From contig NVQB01000001.1 in NCBI GenBank assembly GCA_002319075.1, positions 2,418,001 through 2,482,000 on the forward strand: a stretch of 64,000 bases of DNA, given 5' to 3'. Shown here piece after piece: positions 24,047 to 64,000 of the stretch. The notes under the pieces are model-generated. The model saw nothing but the letters and a program-made list of their open reading frames with translations. It searched no databases and was not told the origin of the DNA. The translations under genes were made by a program, and so were the position numbers. Numbering within the stretch: the stretch's first letter is position 1; every line of letters begins with the position of its first letter. The stretch is from Sphingobacteriaceae bacterium. Its GTDB lineage: Bacteria; Bacteroidota; Bacteroidia; B-17B0; Aurantibacillaceae.

Positions 24047-24400
24047 GAAGGGATTGGCTACGCCGGACCCTTCTCGTGCGAAGTCATAATTCAAAAGTAA
24101 AATGCTTTGCATTTCCTTTTTGTTTTATCCTCGTCGCTTTAAAGATTGCTTTAGGTTTTTTTTACACTGAAGGGATTGGCTACGCCGGACCCTTCTCGTG
24201 CGAAGTCATAATTCAAAAGTAAAATGCTTTGCATTTCCTTTTTGTTTTACCCCTGTCGCTTTAAAGCAAGCTTTAGGTTTTTTACACCGAAGGGATTGGC
24301 TACGCCGGACCCTTCTCGTGCGAAGTCACAATTCAAAAGTAAAATGCTTTGCATTTCCTTTTTGTTTTATCCCCGTCGCTTTAAAGCAAGCTTTAAGCGC
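24047..24400. repeat. Three tandem ~120-bp repeats with internal hairpins
   Basis: Three copies start at 24047, 24169 and 24289, a period of 122 then 120 bases. Each unit opens GAAGGGATTGGCTACGCCGG and ends its first hairpin in CCCTTC (GAAGGG pairs with CCCTTC around GGC/GCC). A second perfect hairpin is AAATGC-TTT-GCATTT followed by CCTTTTT. A third, TTAAAGC/GCTTTAA, closes units 2 and 3. Copies differ at only a few positions. The array fills the gap between the DUF2142 gene and tRNA-Arg. Nothing indicates coding; it looks like a structured repeat element of unknown function. Confidence 0.85.
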
Positions 24401-55382: not shown

Positions 55383-57335
55383 TTACATTTCATCCTGGAT
55401 TTCTAACCAGCGCATCGATTTTTGATCCAGCTCTTCCGTTACAGTTTTTAATTCGTCGGTACGTTGCTGAACCTCATTATAATCCGTTAAACCACTCGCC
55501 AGTTCATCGTTGAGACGCATTTTTCTTTCTTCTAAAACAGGAATATCAATTTCCAGTTCTTCGAGTTCACGTTGCATTTTAAAAGATAATTTCTTCGCAG
55601 GCGTTTTAACTTCCTGTTTTGCTGCAGCGGCTTCCTGTTTCTTCTCGACTACGCTCGAAGTGACTTCTGCCGGCTGCTTACTGCCCACTGCTGACTGCTT
55701 ACCGCCCAATGCCTCCTGCTTACTGGCTTCTTTCTGTTCGCTGATCCAGTTTCTGTATTCGGTATAGTTACCCGGGTAATCTTTAATAGCGCCATTGCCT
55801 TCTAACACGAAAGTATGATCTACCAAACGGTCAATAAAATAACGGTCATGGGAAACAATCAAAACACAGCCTTTGAATTCTTCCAAGAAATCTTCAAGTG
55901 TTTGTAAAGTCACAATGTCTAAATCATTGGTTGGCTCATCAAGAATCAAAAAGTTGGGATTCTTCATCAACACCGTTAAAAGAAACAATCTTCTTTTTTC
56001 ACCACCGCTTAATGTATGGGCATAGCTGTATTGCACATTCGGCGGGAAATTAAAGCGTGTCAACAATTGCGAAGCAGATAAGCTCGCCCCATTTGCCAAA
56101 GGAATGTGTTCTGCGATATCCTGGATAATTTCAATAATACGTTTGTCCGTATTAATGATCATTCCTGCCTGAGAATAGTATCCAAACACAATAGTATCTC
56201 CCAGGGCTACTCTTCCTGCATCTACTTCTTCTTTGCCTTGAATAATGTTTAATAAAGTTGTTTTCCCGACACCGTTTTTCCCTACAACACCAATTTTCTC
56301 TCCCGGAATAAAAGTATAAGTAAAGGGTTCAGATAAAATAACTTTGTTGGGATAATTTTTTGTGATGCCATGAAGCTCCACAATCTTAGAACCCATACGT
56401 TCCATCTTCACCGTTAATTCAATTTTTTTCTCAACGCGTTTTTGTTTTGCCTTCTTTTCAATTTCATAAAAAGCATCTACGCGCGATTTTGATTTGGTTC
56501 CGCGGGCCTTTGGCATCTTACGCACCCAAACCACTTCTTTGCGGTATAGGTTTCTGGCTTTATCAATTTCAGCATCGCTGATCTGTTCGCGTTCAGCTTT
56601 TTTCTCTAAATAATAATCAAAGTTTCCTTTGTATTCATAAAGCATGTGGTTATCTATCTCAATGATTTTATCACACACTTCATCTAAAAAATAACGGTCG
56701 TGGGTTACTAATAAAATACTAATTGATCCATCCTGTAAATAATTTTCCAACCATTCAATCATCTCAATATCGAGGTGATTGGTAGGCTCATCCATAATAA
56801 TAAGGTTAGGCTTATTAATTAATGTGAGAGCAAGAGCCACACGTTTTTTTTGTCCACCCGAAAGAGTACTTATGATGCGGCTTGTATCTTTGATCTCTAA
56901 TTTTGTCAGAATCTCCAGGATATTTTTTTCATAATCCCAGGCATCGATCAAATTCATTTCGTTCAAAGCAATTTCCATTCTGTCGGCAACAGAGTCGCTC
57001 GAATCGGTCTCGCTTAGTTTAATAACAGCATCGTAATTACGAATGCAGCGTACAAACTGATTGTCGGCGGTATCAATGAGTTGTTGAATAGTAAGTGTTT
57101 CATCAAATGCAAAGTTCTGTTCTAAAAATCCAACCGTAATGTCTTTTCTAAAAACAACCTCTCCTTCATCAGCTATTTCGATCCCTTTTAAAATTTTAAA
57201 TAAAGTTGTTTTCCCGGAACCATTTTTGGCAACCAGAGCTACTTTTTCGCCGTAATTAATACCGAAACTTATTTTATTAAACAGCACTTTTGCACCGTAT
57301 GCCTTAGAAATATTATTAATAGAGAGTAAATTCAT
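55383..57335 (-). CDS. ABC-F protein, Uup type
   Basis: A 650-residue ATPase with two ABC domains in tandem and no membrane segments. The first has NGSGKTTLFK, LSGGQKKRVALALTL and LIIMDEPTNHLDIE; the second GKNGVGKTTLLN, LSGGEKRRLFLLTVL and FLILDEPTNDLDIV. A C-terminal coiled coil (KMQRELEELEIDIPVLEERKMRLNDEL to MRWLEIQDEM) follows, as in Uup. ABC-F proteins act on ribosomes or nucleic acid junctions. Between the second ABC domain and the coiled coil is a repeat-derived linker (about residues 534 to 566). The ATG 57335 was chosen because the upstream ATG (57353) lies inside the promoter element. It is near-leaderless. Confidence 0.93.
   Translation of the reverse strand: MNLLSINNISKAYGAKVLFNKISFGINYGEKVALVAKNGSGKTTLFKILKGIEIADEGEVVFRKDITVGFLEQNFAFDETLTIQQLIDTADNQFVRCIRNYDAVIKLSETDSSDSVADRMEIALNEMNLIDAWDYEKNILEILTKLEIKDTSRIISTLSGGQKKRVALALTLINKPNLIIMDEPTNHLDIEMIEWLENYLQDGSISILLVTHDRYFLDEVCDKIIEIDNHMLYEYKGNFDYYLEKKAEREQISDAEIDKARNLYRKEVVWVRKMPKARGTKSKSRVDAFYEIEKKAKQKRVEKKIELTVKMERMGSKIVELHGITKNYPNKVILSEPFTYTFIPGEKIGVVGKNGVGKTTLLNIIQGKEEVDAGRVALGDTIVFGYYSQAGMIINTDKRIIEIIQDIAEHIPLANGASLSASQLLTRFNFPPNVQYSYAHTLSGGEKRRLFLLTVLMKNPNFLILDEPTNDLDIVTLQTLEDFLEEFKGCVLIVSHDRYFIDRLVDHTFVLEGNGAIKDYPGNYTEYRNWISEQKEASKQEALGGKQSAVGSKQPAEVTSSVVEKKQEAAAAKQEVKTPAKKLSFKMQRELEELEIDIPVLEERKMRLNDELASGLTDYNEVQQRTDELKTVTEELDQKSMRWLEIQDEM
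55642..55670. repeat. REP-like motif copy inside the ABC-F gene
   Basis: TTCTCGACTACGCTCGAA and its continuation match the 26-base tandem array at 63025-63310 at all but two of 29 positions. It is read in frame within the ABC-F linker as part of EVTSSVVEKKQ. A neighbouring 55675-55735 stretch (repeats of CTGCTTACTGCC type) is also repeat-like. Confidence 0.7.
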
Positions 57336-61518: not shown

Positions 61519-62916
61519 ATGGAAATTGGAATTCAAACAGCAGCGTATTTATTCGCAAGTATCTTATTTATTTTAAGTTTAGGTAGTTTGTCCTCGCAGG
61601 AATCTGCAAAACGCGGTGTACTTTATGGTATCATTGGAATGGTGATCGCTATTTTAGCAACTGTTCTCGGAGCGGGTGTTCATGGACAAATCTATATCAT
61701 TGCAGCCATAGCCATTGCCTCTGTTATTGGTTTATTATTAGCTCGCAAAGTAGAGATGACCTCTATGCCTCAGCTGGTAGCAATTCTTCATAGCTTTGTG
61801 GGACTGGCAGCAGTACTTGTAGGTTTTGGCTCTTACCTCGATCCGCATACCCATATGCTTACGGGAACAGAAAGAACTATCCACTTAGTAGAAGTTTTTG
61901 TGGGTGTATTTATTGGAGCTCTTACTTTTACCGGATCTATCATTGCCTGGGGCAAGCTCGAAGGCAAAGTAAGAAGCAAACCTTTGTTATATCCTGGCCG
62001 CCATTTTGTAAATATTATTATGGTAGTTGCCAGTATAGTGTTGGGCGTGTTGTTCGCTAATGCCGAAGGAACAAGCGGAATGACGCAGTTATGCATTATG
62101 ACTGCTATTTCAGGATTTGTAGGTGTGATGTTGGTTATGGCTATTGGTGGTGCAGACATGCCGGTGGTGGTTTCTATGTTGAATTCTTATTCCGGTTGGG
62201 CCGCATCAGCTGCGGGTTTTATGCTTGGAAACGATTTACTGATTGTTACAGGCGCATTGGTAGGTAGCTCAGGTGCTATTCTTTCTATCATTATGTGTGA
62301 AGCAATGAACCGTTCTTTCTTCTCTGTTATTTTAGGTGGATTTGGAAATGCACCTGCTGCAAGTGGCGATGCAAAAGCTATTGAAGGAGAAGTAACTTCT
62401 GTGAGTCATGAAGAGGTTGCTGACTTATTGAAGGAGGCAAAATCTGTAGTAATTGTTCCTGGGTATGGAATGGCTGTTGCAAAAGCGCAGTATCCTATTT
62501 TTGAGATGGTACAACGTTTACGCAAAGCGGGTAAAAAAGTGAGATTCGCTATTCACCCAGTGGCAGGGCGTTTACCTGGACATATGAACGTGCTATTAGC
62601 GGAAGCAAATGTACCTTATGATATTGTTTTAGAAATGGATGAGATCAACGAAGATCTTCCGGAAACAGATGTAGTAATGGTTATTGGGGCTAACGACGTT
62701 GTAAATCCTGGTGCACAGGATGATCCCTCAAGTCCTATTTACGGAATGCCTGTAATAGAAGCATGGAAAGCAGAAAAAGTAATTGTGATGAAACGTTCTA
62801 TGTCTGTGGGATATGCGGGTGTTGAGAATCCTTTGTTCTACAAATCAAATGCAGAAATGCTTTACGGCGATGCTAAAGAGAGCGTTGAGAAAATTTTAGG
62901 CTTTCTAAAAGCTTAA
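61519..62916 (+). CDS. pntB: NAD(P) transhydrogenase subunit beta (PntB)
   Basis: A 465-residue beta subunit with about nine N-terminal membrane helices ([19 protein letters not shown] and following) and a C-terminal NADP-binding domain. The latter contains [48 protein letters not shown] and [29 protein letters not shown], all highly conserved motifs of the family, ending [25 protein letters not shown]. It lies 11 bases downstream of pntA and forms one operon with it. A terminator-like inverted repeat with an embedded repeat array starts 20 bases after the stop. Confidence 0.96.
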
Positions 62917-62935
62917 TTTAAATAGTTTGAAATAG

Positions 62936-63331
62936 AAAAGAGGCTGTCAAAACTACGCATCTTATGACGTGTCACATCGAACGTAGTCTGGATGGTTGTG
63001 AAGGCAGCGGGGTAAGTCGTTCTCGACTACGCTCGAACTGACATCTGCTTGACTACGCTCGAACTGAGATCTGCTTGACTACGCTCGAACTGACATCCGC
63101 TTGACTACGCTCGAACTGACATCTGCTTGAGTACGCTCGAACTGACATCTGCTTGACTATGCTCTAACTGACATCTGCTTGACTACGCTCGAACTGAGAT
63201 CTGCTTGACTACGCTCGAACTGACATCCGCTTGACTATGCTCGAACTGACATCTGCTTGACTATGCTCGAACTGACATCTGCTTGACTATGCTCGAACTG
63301 ACATCTACTCGACTCGGTGACAACCTCTTTT
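62936..63331. repeat. Inverted repeat flanking the tandem array (split terminator)
   Basis: AAAAGAGGCTGTCA at 62936-62949 pairs with TGACAACCTCTTTT at 63318-63331 in 13 of 14 positions, and a T run follows on the right. This looks like a terminator stem whose loop contains the 26-base array. It lies 20 bases after pntB and 24 bases before the end of the converging fdhA gene, so it would serve both. Confidence 0.6.
63025..63310. repeat. Eleven-unit 26-bp tandem array
   Basis: Eleven contiguous units of 26 bases, each beginning GACTACGCTCGAACTGACAT (with small changes such as TATGC, GAGATC, CATCCG). Units start at 63025, 63051, and so on to 63285, with a partial unit at 63311. Units 2-3 (GAGATC then CATCCG) recur as units 7-8, which suggests a five-unit duplication. 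There is no spacer, so it is not CRISPR. It lies inside the pntB terminator-like inverted repeat. Confidence 0.92.
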
Positions 63332-63354
63332 TATTTATTCGAAAATAGATCTTA

Positions 63355-64000
63355 TTAATTTTTGATCATGCCATGCGGATCAATCACAAATTTTTTTGCG
63401 GCGCCCTTATCAAAATCGTGATACCCGCGAACGGAATCCTTTAAGGAAATGACTTCCACGTTTACGGCTTTTGCAATTTCAATCTTACCATATAAAATGG
63501 CATTCATCAATTGTCTATGGTATTTCATAACCGGACATTGACCTGTATGGATAGAGTGAGACTTTGCCCATCCTAAACCAATACGTATGCTTAAGCTACC
63601 TTTTTTAGCAGCTTCGTCTTTTGCACCAGGATCGCCCGTTACATATAAACCCGGAATTCCTAAAGAACCGCCAGCACGTGTAACTTCCATGATGGAATTT
63701 AAAACGGTAGCAGGTTGTTCTTCTCCGCTGTCGTGTCCGTGTCCCTTTGCTTCAAAGCCTACACAGTCTACGGCACAATCTACTTCCGGTATGCCGACAA
63801 TAGCAGCTATCTGATCTCCCAAAGGAATATCTTTTTTCAGATCGATAATTTCACAACCAAAACTTTGCGCCTGCGTTAAACGCTCGTCGATCATATCGCC
63901 AACAATCACTACTGCAGCTCCCAACAAATGACAAGAGGCGGCACAGGCGAGGCCTACAGGACCCGCACCAGCAATGTAAACAATACTTCCCGGACCAACA
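63355..64000 (-). CDS. fdhA: Glutathione-independent formaldehyde dehydrogenase, C-terminal part
   Basis: The last 214 residues of a zinc-dependent medium-chain dehydrogenase whose start is beyond the right edge. The cofactor motif AGAGPVGLACAASCHLLGAAVVIVGD is at the left of the visible part, followed by VDCAVDCVGFEAKGHGHDSGEEQPATVLNSIMEVT and GLGWAKSHSIHTGQCPVMKYHRQLMNAI, which match Pseudomonas putida-type formaldehyde dehydrogenase. It oxidises formaldehyde to formate with NAD bound tightly and needs no glutathione. The catalytic zinc ligands would lie in the missing N-terminal part. An alternative is another member of the zinc alcohol dehydrogenase family with the same tail. Confidence 0.9.
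   Translation of the reverse strand, partial: VGPGSIVYIAGAGPVGLACAASCHLLGAAVVIVGDMIDERLTQAQSFGCEIIDLKKDIPLGDQIAAIVGIPEVDCAVDCVGFEAKGHGHDSGEEQPATVLNSIMEVTRAGGSLGIPGLYVTGDPGAKDEAAKKGSLSIRIGLGWAKSHSIHTGQCPVMKYHRQLMNAILYGKIEIAKAVNVEVISLKDSVRGYHDFDKGAAKKFVIDPHGMIKN

Follow-up and report, generated by a model that had tools for sequence, protein, structure and literature searches.

A probable MITE-like terminator at pntB that encloses a REP-like doublet with one member expanded in tandem

The BrickBuilt element of Porphyromonas gingivalis, in the available portions of its description, is an intergenic MITE that contains a minisatellite of 23-nt units and has ends close to those of ISPg1/ISPg9 (PMC4596501). 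At one locus, strains differ in the number of repeats and hence in the length of the element, and 19 copies are reported in one genome (PMC4596501). The BOX elements of Streptococcus pneumoniae consist of stem-forming outer modules around tandem modules whose number is not fixed, and strain-to-strain variation is greater among the larger elements. The same source, as far as its available text goes, describes SPRITE, a dispersed hairpin with a T-rich tract at gene 3' ends that is a possible terminator, and the insertion of such pneumococcal repeats into one another (PMC3049150). REP, BIME and REPIN sequences are presented in the accessible parts of two accounts as short, multicopy, mostly extragenic palindromes that occur singly, in pairs or in tandem clusters (PMC3733652, PMC12306157), and the tags of REPs are given as GTAG or CGTC (PMC3733652).

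Here we describe an element at positions 62936-63331 of the window, which is the whole stretch of 64,000 nucleotides from a Sphingobacteriaceae bacterium that was analysed. We regard it as rather likely that this element is a composite stem-loop between convergent genes, in which MITE-like, IS1182-end-like terminator arms surround a doublet of REP palindromes and one member of the doublet has been amplified. The upstream gene is pntB, for NAD(P) transhydrogenase subunit beta (61519-62916, + strand; NF006974, E = 2.3e-211). It converges, across 438 bp, with an fdhA-like gene for a glutathione-independent formaldehyde dehydrogenase (63355-63999, - strand; TIGR02819, E = 1.9e-111). The window end cuts the latter gene and leaves 214 aa inside; TIGR02819 is its best match and falls below the cut-off of that model.

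The left arm of the outer inverted repeat (62936-62949, + strand) lies 19 nt past the pntB stop, and the first 12 nt of its core match the AAAGAGGYTGTC family. The right arm (63318-63331, + strand) is followed by a T run and stands 23 nt before the fdhA stop. The arms are 14 nt long, pair at 13 of 14 positions (93% complementary) and have 368 nt between them. The earlier note had reported a 13/14 inverted repeat around an 11-unit array of 26-bp repeats, and both are found at these coordinates. The arms also enclose an inverted REP-like unit, the first member of the doublet (TGTCACATCGAACGTAGTC, 62970-62988, - strand, 3 mismatches). The hexamer GTTCTC (63019-63024, + strand) then completes the palindrome of the first + unit only, and the tandem array follows with eleven 26-bp REP-like units (core GACTACGCTCGAACTGACA plus spacer, 63025-63310, + strand). 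A probable degenerate twelfth + unit (GACTCGGTGACA, 63311-63322) can be read from the sequence, and its TGACA would overlap the right arm. The stretch between the left arm and the inverted unit (62950-62969, AAACTACGCATCTTATGACG) resembles by eye a decayed + unit. No known RNA family matches 62800-63500 at E <= 1.

Repeats occur elsewhere in the window as well. Units of 120 bp are repeated in tandem at 24047-24395 (2.9 copies, 94% matches), and the end of this array has strong inverted repeats. At 55647-55725 a 21-bp repeat, present in 2.8 tandem copies, comes immediately after a lone REP-like unit, which falls within an ORF by a mechanical ORF call.

Tandem Repeats Finder (TRF) places the pntB array at 63025-63314 with a period of 26, 11.2 copies and 93% matches. 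The first unit alone has the complete palindrome, and the remaining units carry spacer in place of GTTCTC. A block of five units that was earlier seen as repeated holds exactly for part of its length: units 2/7 and 3/8 are identical and share private variants, and the pairs 1/6, 4/9 and 5/10 differ by 2, 1 and 2 bases. Because the private variants are common to units 2/7 and 3/8, the sequence suggests duplication of a 130-bp block. Copy number in this array may change by slippage or unequal exchange.

The core of the unit (GACTACGCTCGAAMTGACA) has 317 matches with at most three mismatches in the 5.65-Mb source genome, and the reversed-pattern control has 2. Clusters were sampled in 46 genome regions that hold 273 of these 317 units, with some clusters lying outside the sample. 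A looser scan of the 46 regions, from which single matches with 4-5 mismatches were dropped, gave 337 units in 51 clusters from 45 regions; 32 clusters have at least three units. The array periods include 21, 22, 23, 24, 25, 26, 27, 28, 34/35, 42-45, 59, 80 and 88 bp, and both period and spacer are private to each locus. The complete unit can be written XY-TC-TCGA-CTNCGC-TCGA-Y'X'-TGACA. XY and Y'X' pair as complements in 51 of 59 distinct locus/pair cases, where shuffling gives a mean of 10.8 and a maximum of 20; this supports a structured palindrome.

The unit is multicopy, mainly extragenic (7 of the 51 sampled clusters lie inside an ORF, called mechanically here as in the other position counts below) and palindromic in a way that allows a stem-loop. 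Its conserved end is TGTCA/TGACA, and the GTAG or CGTC tag is absent. We call it REP-like because this tag is missing and no cognate Y1 transposase was found. The source genome has no PF01797 match, and a Y1 transposase match occurs in 29 of 40 genus genomes. The unit (at most one mismatch) is present in 20 of the 40, with 184 matches in the source genome and 31 in the next highest, so that the highest load belongs to a genome with no Y1 match. The unit was rejected as the cognate REP of the genus Y1 transposases, since none of 20 loci examined among the 67 listed had it within 4 kb. Different repeats accompany some of these Y1 loci; L248, for example, has CCCGCTCCGCAGGA five times.

Two further features of the unit were seen across the source genome. 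The stop codon of an ORF of at least 100 codons falls between -12 and +4 of the unit start in 18 of 66 complete head units (random positions, 23 of 2640; mechanical ORF calls), with examples at L179, L189, L190, L193, L194, L197, L198, L212, L213 and L221. In 13 of those 18 the stop abuts or overlaps the unit, as in TAG-TTCTC and T-GATCTC. Many arrays have the palindrome AACATCCANTGGATGTT within their longer units, with 50 occurrences over 14 of the 46 regions (L179, L185, L190, L192, L208, L209, L212, L219, L221, L223 and others), and a second palindrome, AAAAGAGT..ACTCTTTT, is nested in the REP-like unit in 6 regions.

The outer arms could in principle be part of the REP itself. The pntB array has the highest flank score (11) among the 51 unit clusters examined. 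We reject a REP origin of the arms because none of the other clusters has a flanking inverted repeat that scores more than 9. The absence of such a repeat near other array copies had been named in advance as evidence that would count against a terminator loop at pntB. We think that it instead separates the arms from the REP and leaves the terminator idea standing.

Several features bear on whether the arms act as a terminator. They pair in the minimum-energy folds of both strands, and the + strand fold of the whole element is not better than that of shuffled sequences (z = -1.19). A stem and a T run are present at the gene 3' end, as in an intrinsic terminator, and the loop of 368 nt is not short. 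Loops of this size lie far beyond those of usual intrinsic terminators. A scan of both strands between pntB and fdhA found 0 short-loop terminator sites, which leaves the long inverted repeat as the sole candidate observed in this intergenic stretch. Judged from these sequence features, the arms may end transcripts of both pntB and fdhA. The long loop should weaken termination or make it more variable than in short-loop versions, unless pairing between the inner - and + units draws the two arms close to each other. If the arms do work in this way, the transcript ends of both genes may vary between strains, as the earlier note had proposed.

The genus relatives offer a comparison at the same place. 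The 1500 nt after pntB were covered in 23 of 24 relatives (189 nt in L127; G012 was left out because its pntB is split between contigs), and neither the arm motif nor the unit is present in any of the 23. The same terminator lacking the array, which had been suggested as something to look for in relatives, is not seen at this position in them. A simple short-loop terminator of unrelated sequence follows pntB in 9 of the 23, and 14 have no recognisable one. Unrelated terminators in relatives had also been proposed as grounds for giving up the terminator-loop idea. We do not think that they refute it, because the sequences after pntB in these relatives look by reading unrelated to the one in the window.

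It could be argued that the array is surrounded by a hairpin that arose by chance or has decayed, that this long inverted repeat is no terminator and that the transcripts end otherwise. The extreme loop length and the 14 relatives in which a terminator is not recognisable would fit such an account, as would a control in which mismatched pairs of left and right flanks reach a score of 11 in 1.4% of 2538 cases. At that rate one case in 51 clusters is expected, and the pntB score is unremarkable by the flank-pair test alone. However, an equal or better inverted repeat arises in only 27 of 20,000 dinucleotide shuffles of the flanks of the element itself (53 and 51 nt). The arms also share the 12-mer of a hairpin family, whose exact occurrences should number about two per genome by the control count; the right arm is followed by a T run, and the arms stand close to the two stop codons. 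We consequently hold a chance or decayed hairpin to be quite improbable.

Both pntB arms contain exact AAAGAGGYTGTC. This 12-mer is found exactly at five places in the source genome, namely the two pntB arms, both arms of the 5592639-5592753 stem-loop and one coding site. It is not overrepresented as such, with 36 matches at up to one mismatch against 43 for the reversed control, so that weight is given to the exact pairs and the longer motif only. The longer motif, the 18-mer AAAGAGGYTGTCTCAAAA, occurs with at most one mismatch in 17 of 40 genus genomes (control, 1 match), and its exact C form occurs in 29 of 395 class genomes (control, none). An exact copy at 3276440 of the source genome lies, by reading, inside a coding sequence. 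The pntB arms match the family over the outer 12 of 18 nt only: the TCAAAA of the family motif is missing from the right arm, and the left arm lacks TC.

In genome G014 this motif bounds a 1779-bp element (L267 1630-3408, G014:C9) with a 511-aa IS1182 transposase (NF033551, E = 3.8e-130). The outer 12 of 18 nt of the pntB arms match the ends of this element and the remaining nucleotides differ. By reading, the element ends themselves form short hairpins like short-loop terminators, as they also do at L345. An IS1182 match of any kind occurs in 8 of 40 genus genomes, and the G014 copy is the only one seen with these ends. None was found in the source genome, for which reason a resident IS1182 copy that drives the composite was rejected. 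In G255 every one of the ten motif sites is no more than about 100 nt from the end of a contig, and these sites probably represent the ends of a multicopy IS.

A MITE of IS1182 type would be expected in several copies. This is the case in G362, G300 and G265, and the source genome holds one REP-bearing composite and one REP-less stem-loop of 115 bp, as far as was found. The latter has the same arms (5592639-5592753, L224), and similar REP-less stem-loops of about 115 bp occur in G014, G011 and G265.

To see what family hairpins contain, we took 35 genus places listed at up to one mismatch and 66 class places listed as exact. These reduce to 75 distinct sites, of which 30 are short-loop hairpins, 35 have their partner arm 60-260 nt away and 10 are unclassified. 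Seven of the 35 long hairpins are of the REP-less type of about 115 bp. The other 28 were examined for GTCA near the loop start together with TGAC near the loop end, and 12 have both (shuffle mean 0.82, maximum 5 in 500; reversed motif 3, wrong order 1). The same tags occur in 12 of 33 hairpin interiors and in 0 of 125 100-nt windows beside them. Duplicates were removed differently in this second count, which has 33 long and 31 short hairpins in place of 35 and 30 and keeps the REP-less ones.

REP pairs thus recur inside family hairpins, and the enclosed repeats are by eye of at least four types over five taxonomic families. These are CGTCATTGCG in G003 and G403, CATTCTGAA in G001, G051 and G362, CGTCATTCCC in G362 and G208, and TCGACTNCGCTC..TGACA in G300, G132 and G163, with the form of the window itself in G023 and G048. 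A possible fifth type in G151 is less sure. The types were assigned by eye, and the TCGACTNCGCTCAR type and that of the window may be related. The TCGACTNCGCTCAR form is dispersed in G300, G132 and G163 (32, 16 and 33 matches) and absent from G362, G003 and G208; in G132, 6 of the 16 matches sit in three family hairpins. In the hairpin of G048 the parts follow one another as in the window (arm, - unit, spacer, + unit, arm), and the - unit there has an extra palindrome. Because this order recurs at pntB with the + unit repeated eleven times, we read the pntB element as a family inverted repeat around an amplified REP doublet.

The family hairpins favour gene ends. By mechanical ORF calls, 29 of the 32 long hairpins and 26 of the 27 short ones are at ORF 3' ends (random, 567 of 1220), and 15 long and 11 short ones are between convergent genes (random, 121 of 1220). 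Long hairpins are also dispersed as units. G362 has four copies that are 80-98% alike, G300 has three at 81-83%, and G265 has three at 97-98% that contain no REP. The flanks of these copies are 42-52% alike, except in a local G362 pair that has its right flank in common (93%). Since the hairpins of G362 and G300 carry REP pairs, the pntB composite may likewise have arrived preassembled.

An alternative order of events is that an ordinary short-loop terminator of the common hairpin type already stood after pntB, and that a REP doublet inserted in its loop and later expanded. Short-loop family hairpins do occur at ORF 3' ends, three or four of them in the source genome, and simple terminators directly follow pntB in the 9 relatives mentioned above. 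The same -/+ doublet is also found without outer arms at L187 and L195 of the source genome, which demonstrates that it exists alone. The dispersal of composite hairpins as units in other genomes argues against this order. Longer family members, by reading, have both arms extended to AAAAG/CTTTT, an extension that simple insertion would not give; at pntB that part is missing. On balance we find insertion into a resident pntB terminator unlikely, if less so than a chance hairpin.

We prefer the reading that a composite stem-loop element follows pntB. The outer arms would be the two ends of an inverted repeat that is MITE-like, resembles IS1182 ends and also works as an intrinsic terminator in both directions, and the interior would have held an inverted pair of REP-like palindromes. 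One member of this doublet could then have been amplified in tandem to eleven 26-bp copies, partly through duplication of the 130-bp block. The composite may have come to pntB as a unit. The earlier proposal that a REP-like unit entered the pntB terminator loop and expanded is thus retained in part: a + unit between terminator-like arms has been amplified in tandem, and no short-loop terminator accompanies it. The unit need not have entered a terminator that belonged to pntB, as the arms resemble the IS1182-end family and preassembled composites exist in G362 and G300.

A broader possibility, to which we give somewhat less than even weight, is that one IS1182-end hairpin, a terminator, serves as a class-wide chassis whose loop has captured unrelated REP types on several independent occasions. 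The pntB element would then be the case in which a captured REP grew into an array. Either extruded hairpin loops would be preferred landing sites for REPs, or the chassis would mobilise the REPs that it holds. Such nesting may be mirrored in the REP itself, where longer palindromes lie beside or inside the core at many loci.

What makes these observations interesting is less the single pntB locus than the repeated finding of REPs within one type of hairpin. If REPs do repeatedly enter one terminator-like loop, this would be a route by which they spread without a transposase of their own and land at gene 3' ends. Natural terminators whose loop changes by whole repeat units would make it easy to test the influence of loop size on intrinsic termination. 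The source genome has hundreds of REP-like units in about thirty arrays that differ in period, with no Y1 transposase found, and is suited to the study of array growth.

REPs enclosed by this inverted repeat are not described in the available parts of the REP, RAYT, REPIN, terminator, MITE, BOX and IS1182 literature within a scope that excludes most subscription journals. Within the same scope the core sequences of the unit are not mentioned, and the arm sequences have an unrelated mention only.

Tandem repeats within inverted-repeat ends, the organisation that defines BOX and BrickBuilt, are nevertheless present at pntB. BrickBuilt is also from the Bacteroidota and also has short tandem units inside IS-like inverted-repeat ends. 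It differs in its unit and end sequences and in having 19 copies where one REP-bearing composite was found here, and the accessible text does not call its repeat a REP (PMC4596501). BOX shares the arrangement of tandem modules within a stem-forming frame, but belongs to another phylum and has other sequences, as judged by name rather than by direct alignment; the available account states neither a terminator role nor REP content (PMC3049150). SPRITE resembles the pntB element as a terminator-like hairpin at a gene 3' end, and differs in that no enclosed repeat pair is part of its description there (PMC3049150). The REP-like unit, finally, has the same organisation as REP, BIME and REPIN sequences in the portions of those accounts available, and is distinguished from them by its TGTCA/TGACA tag, by the lack of any Y1 transposase found and, at pntB, by the foreign arms that surround it.
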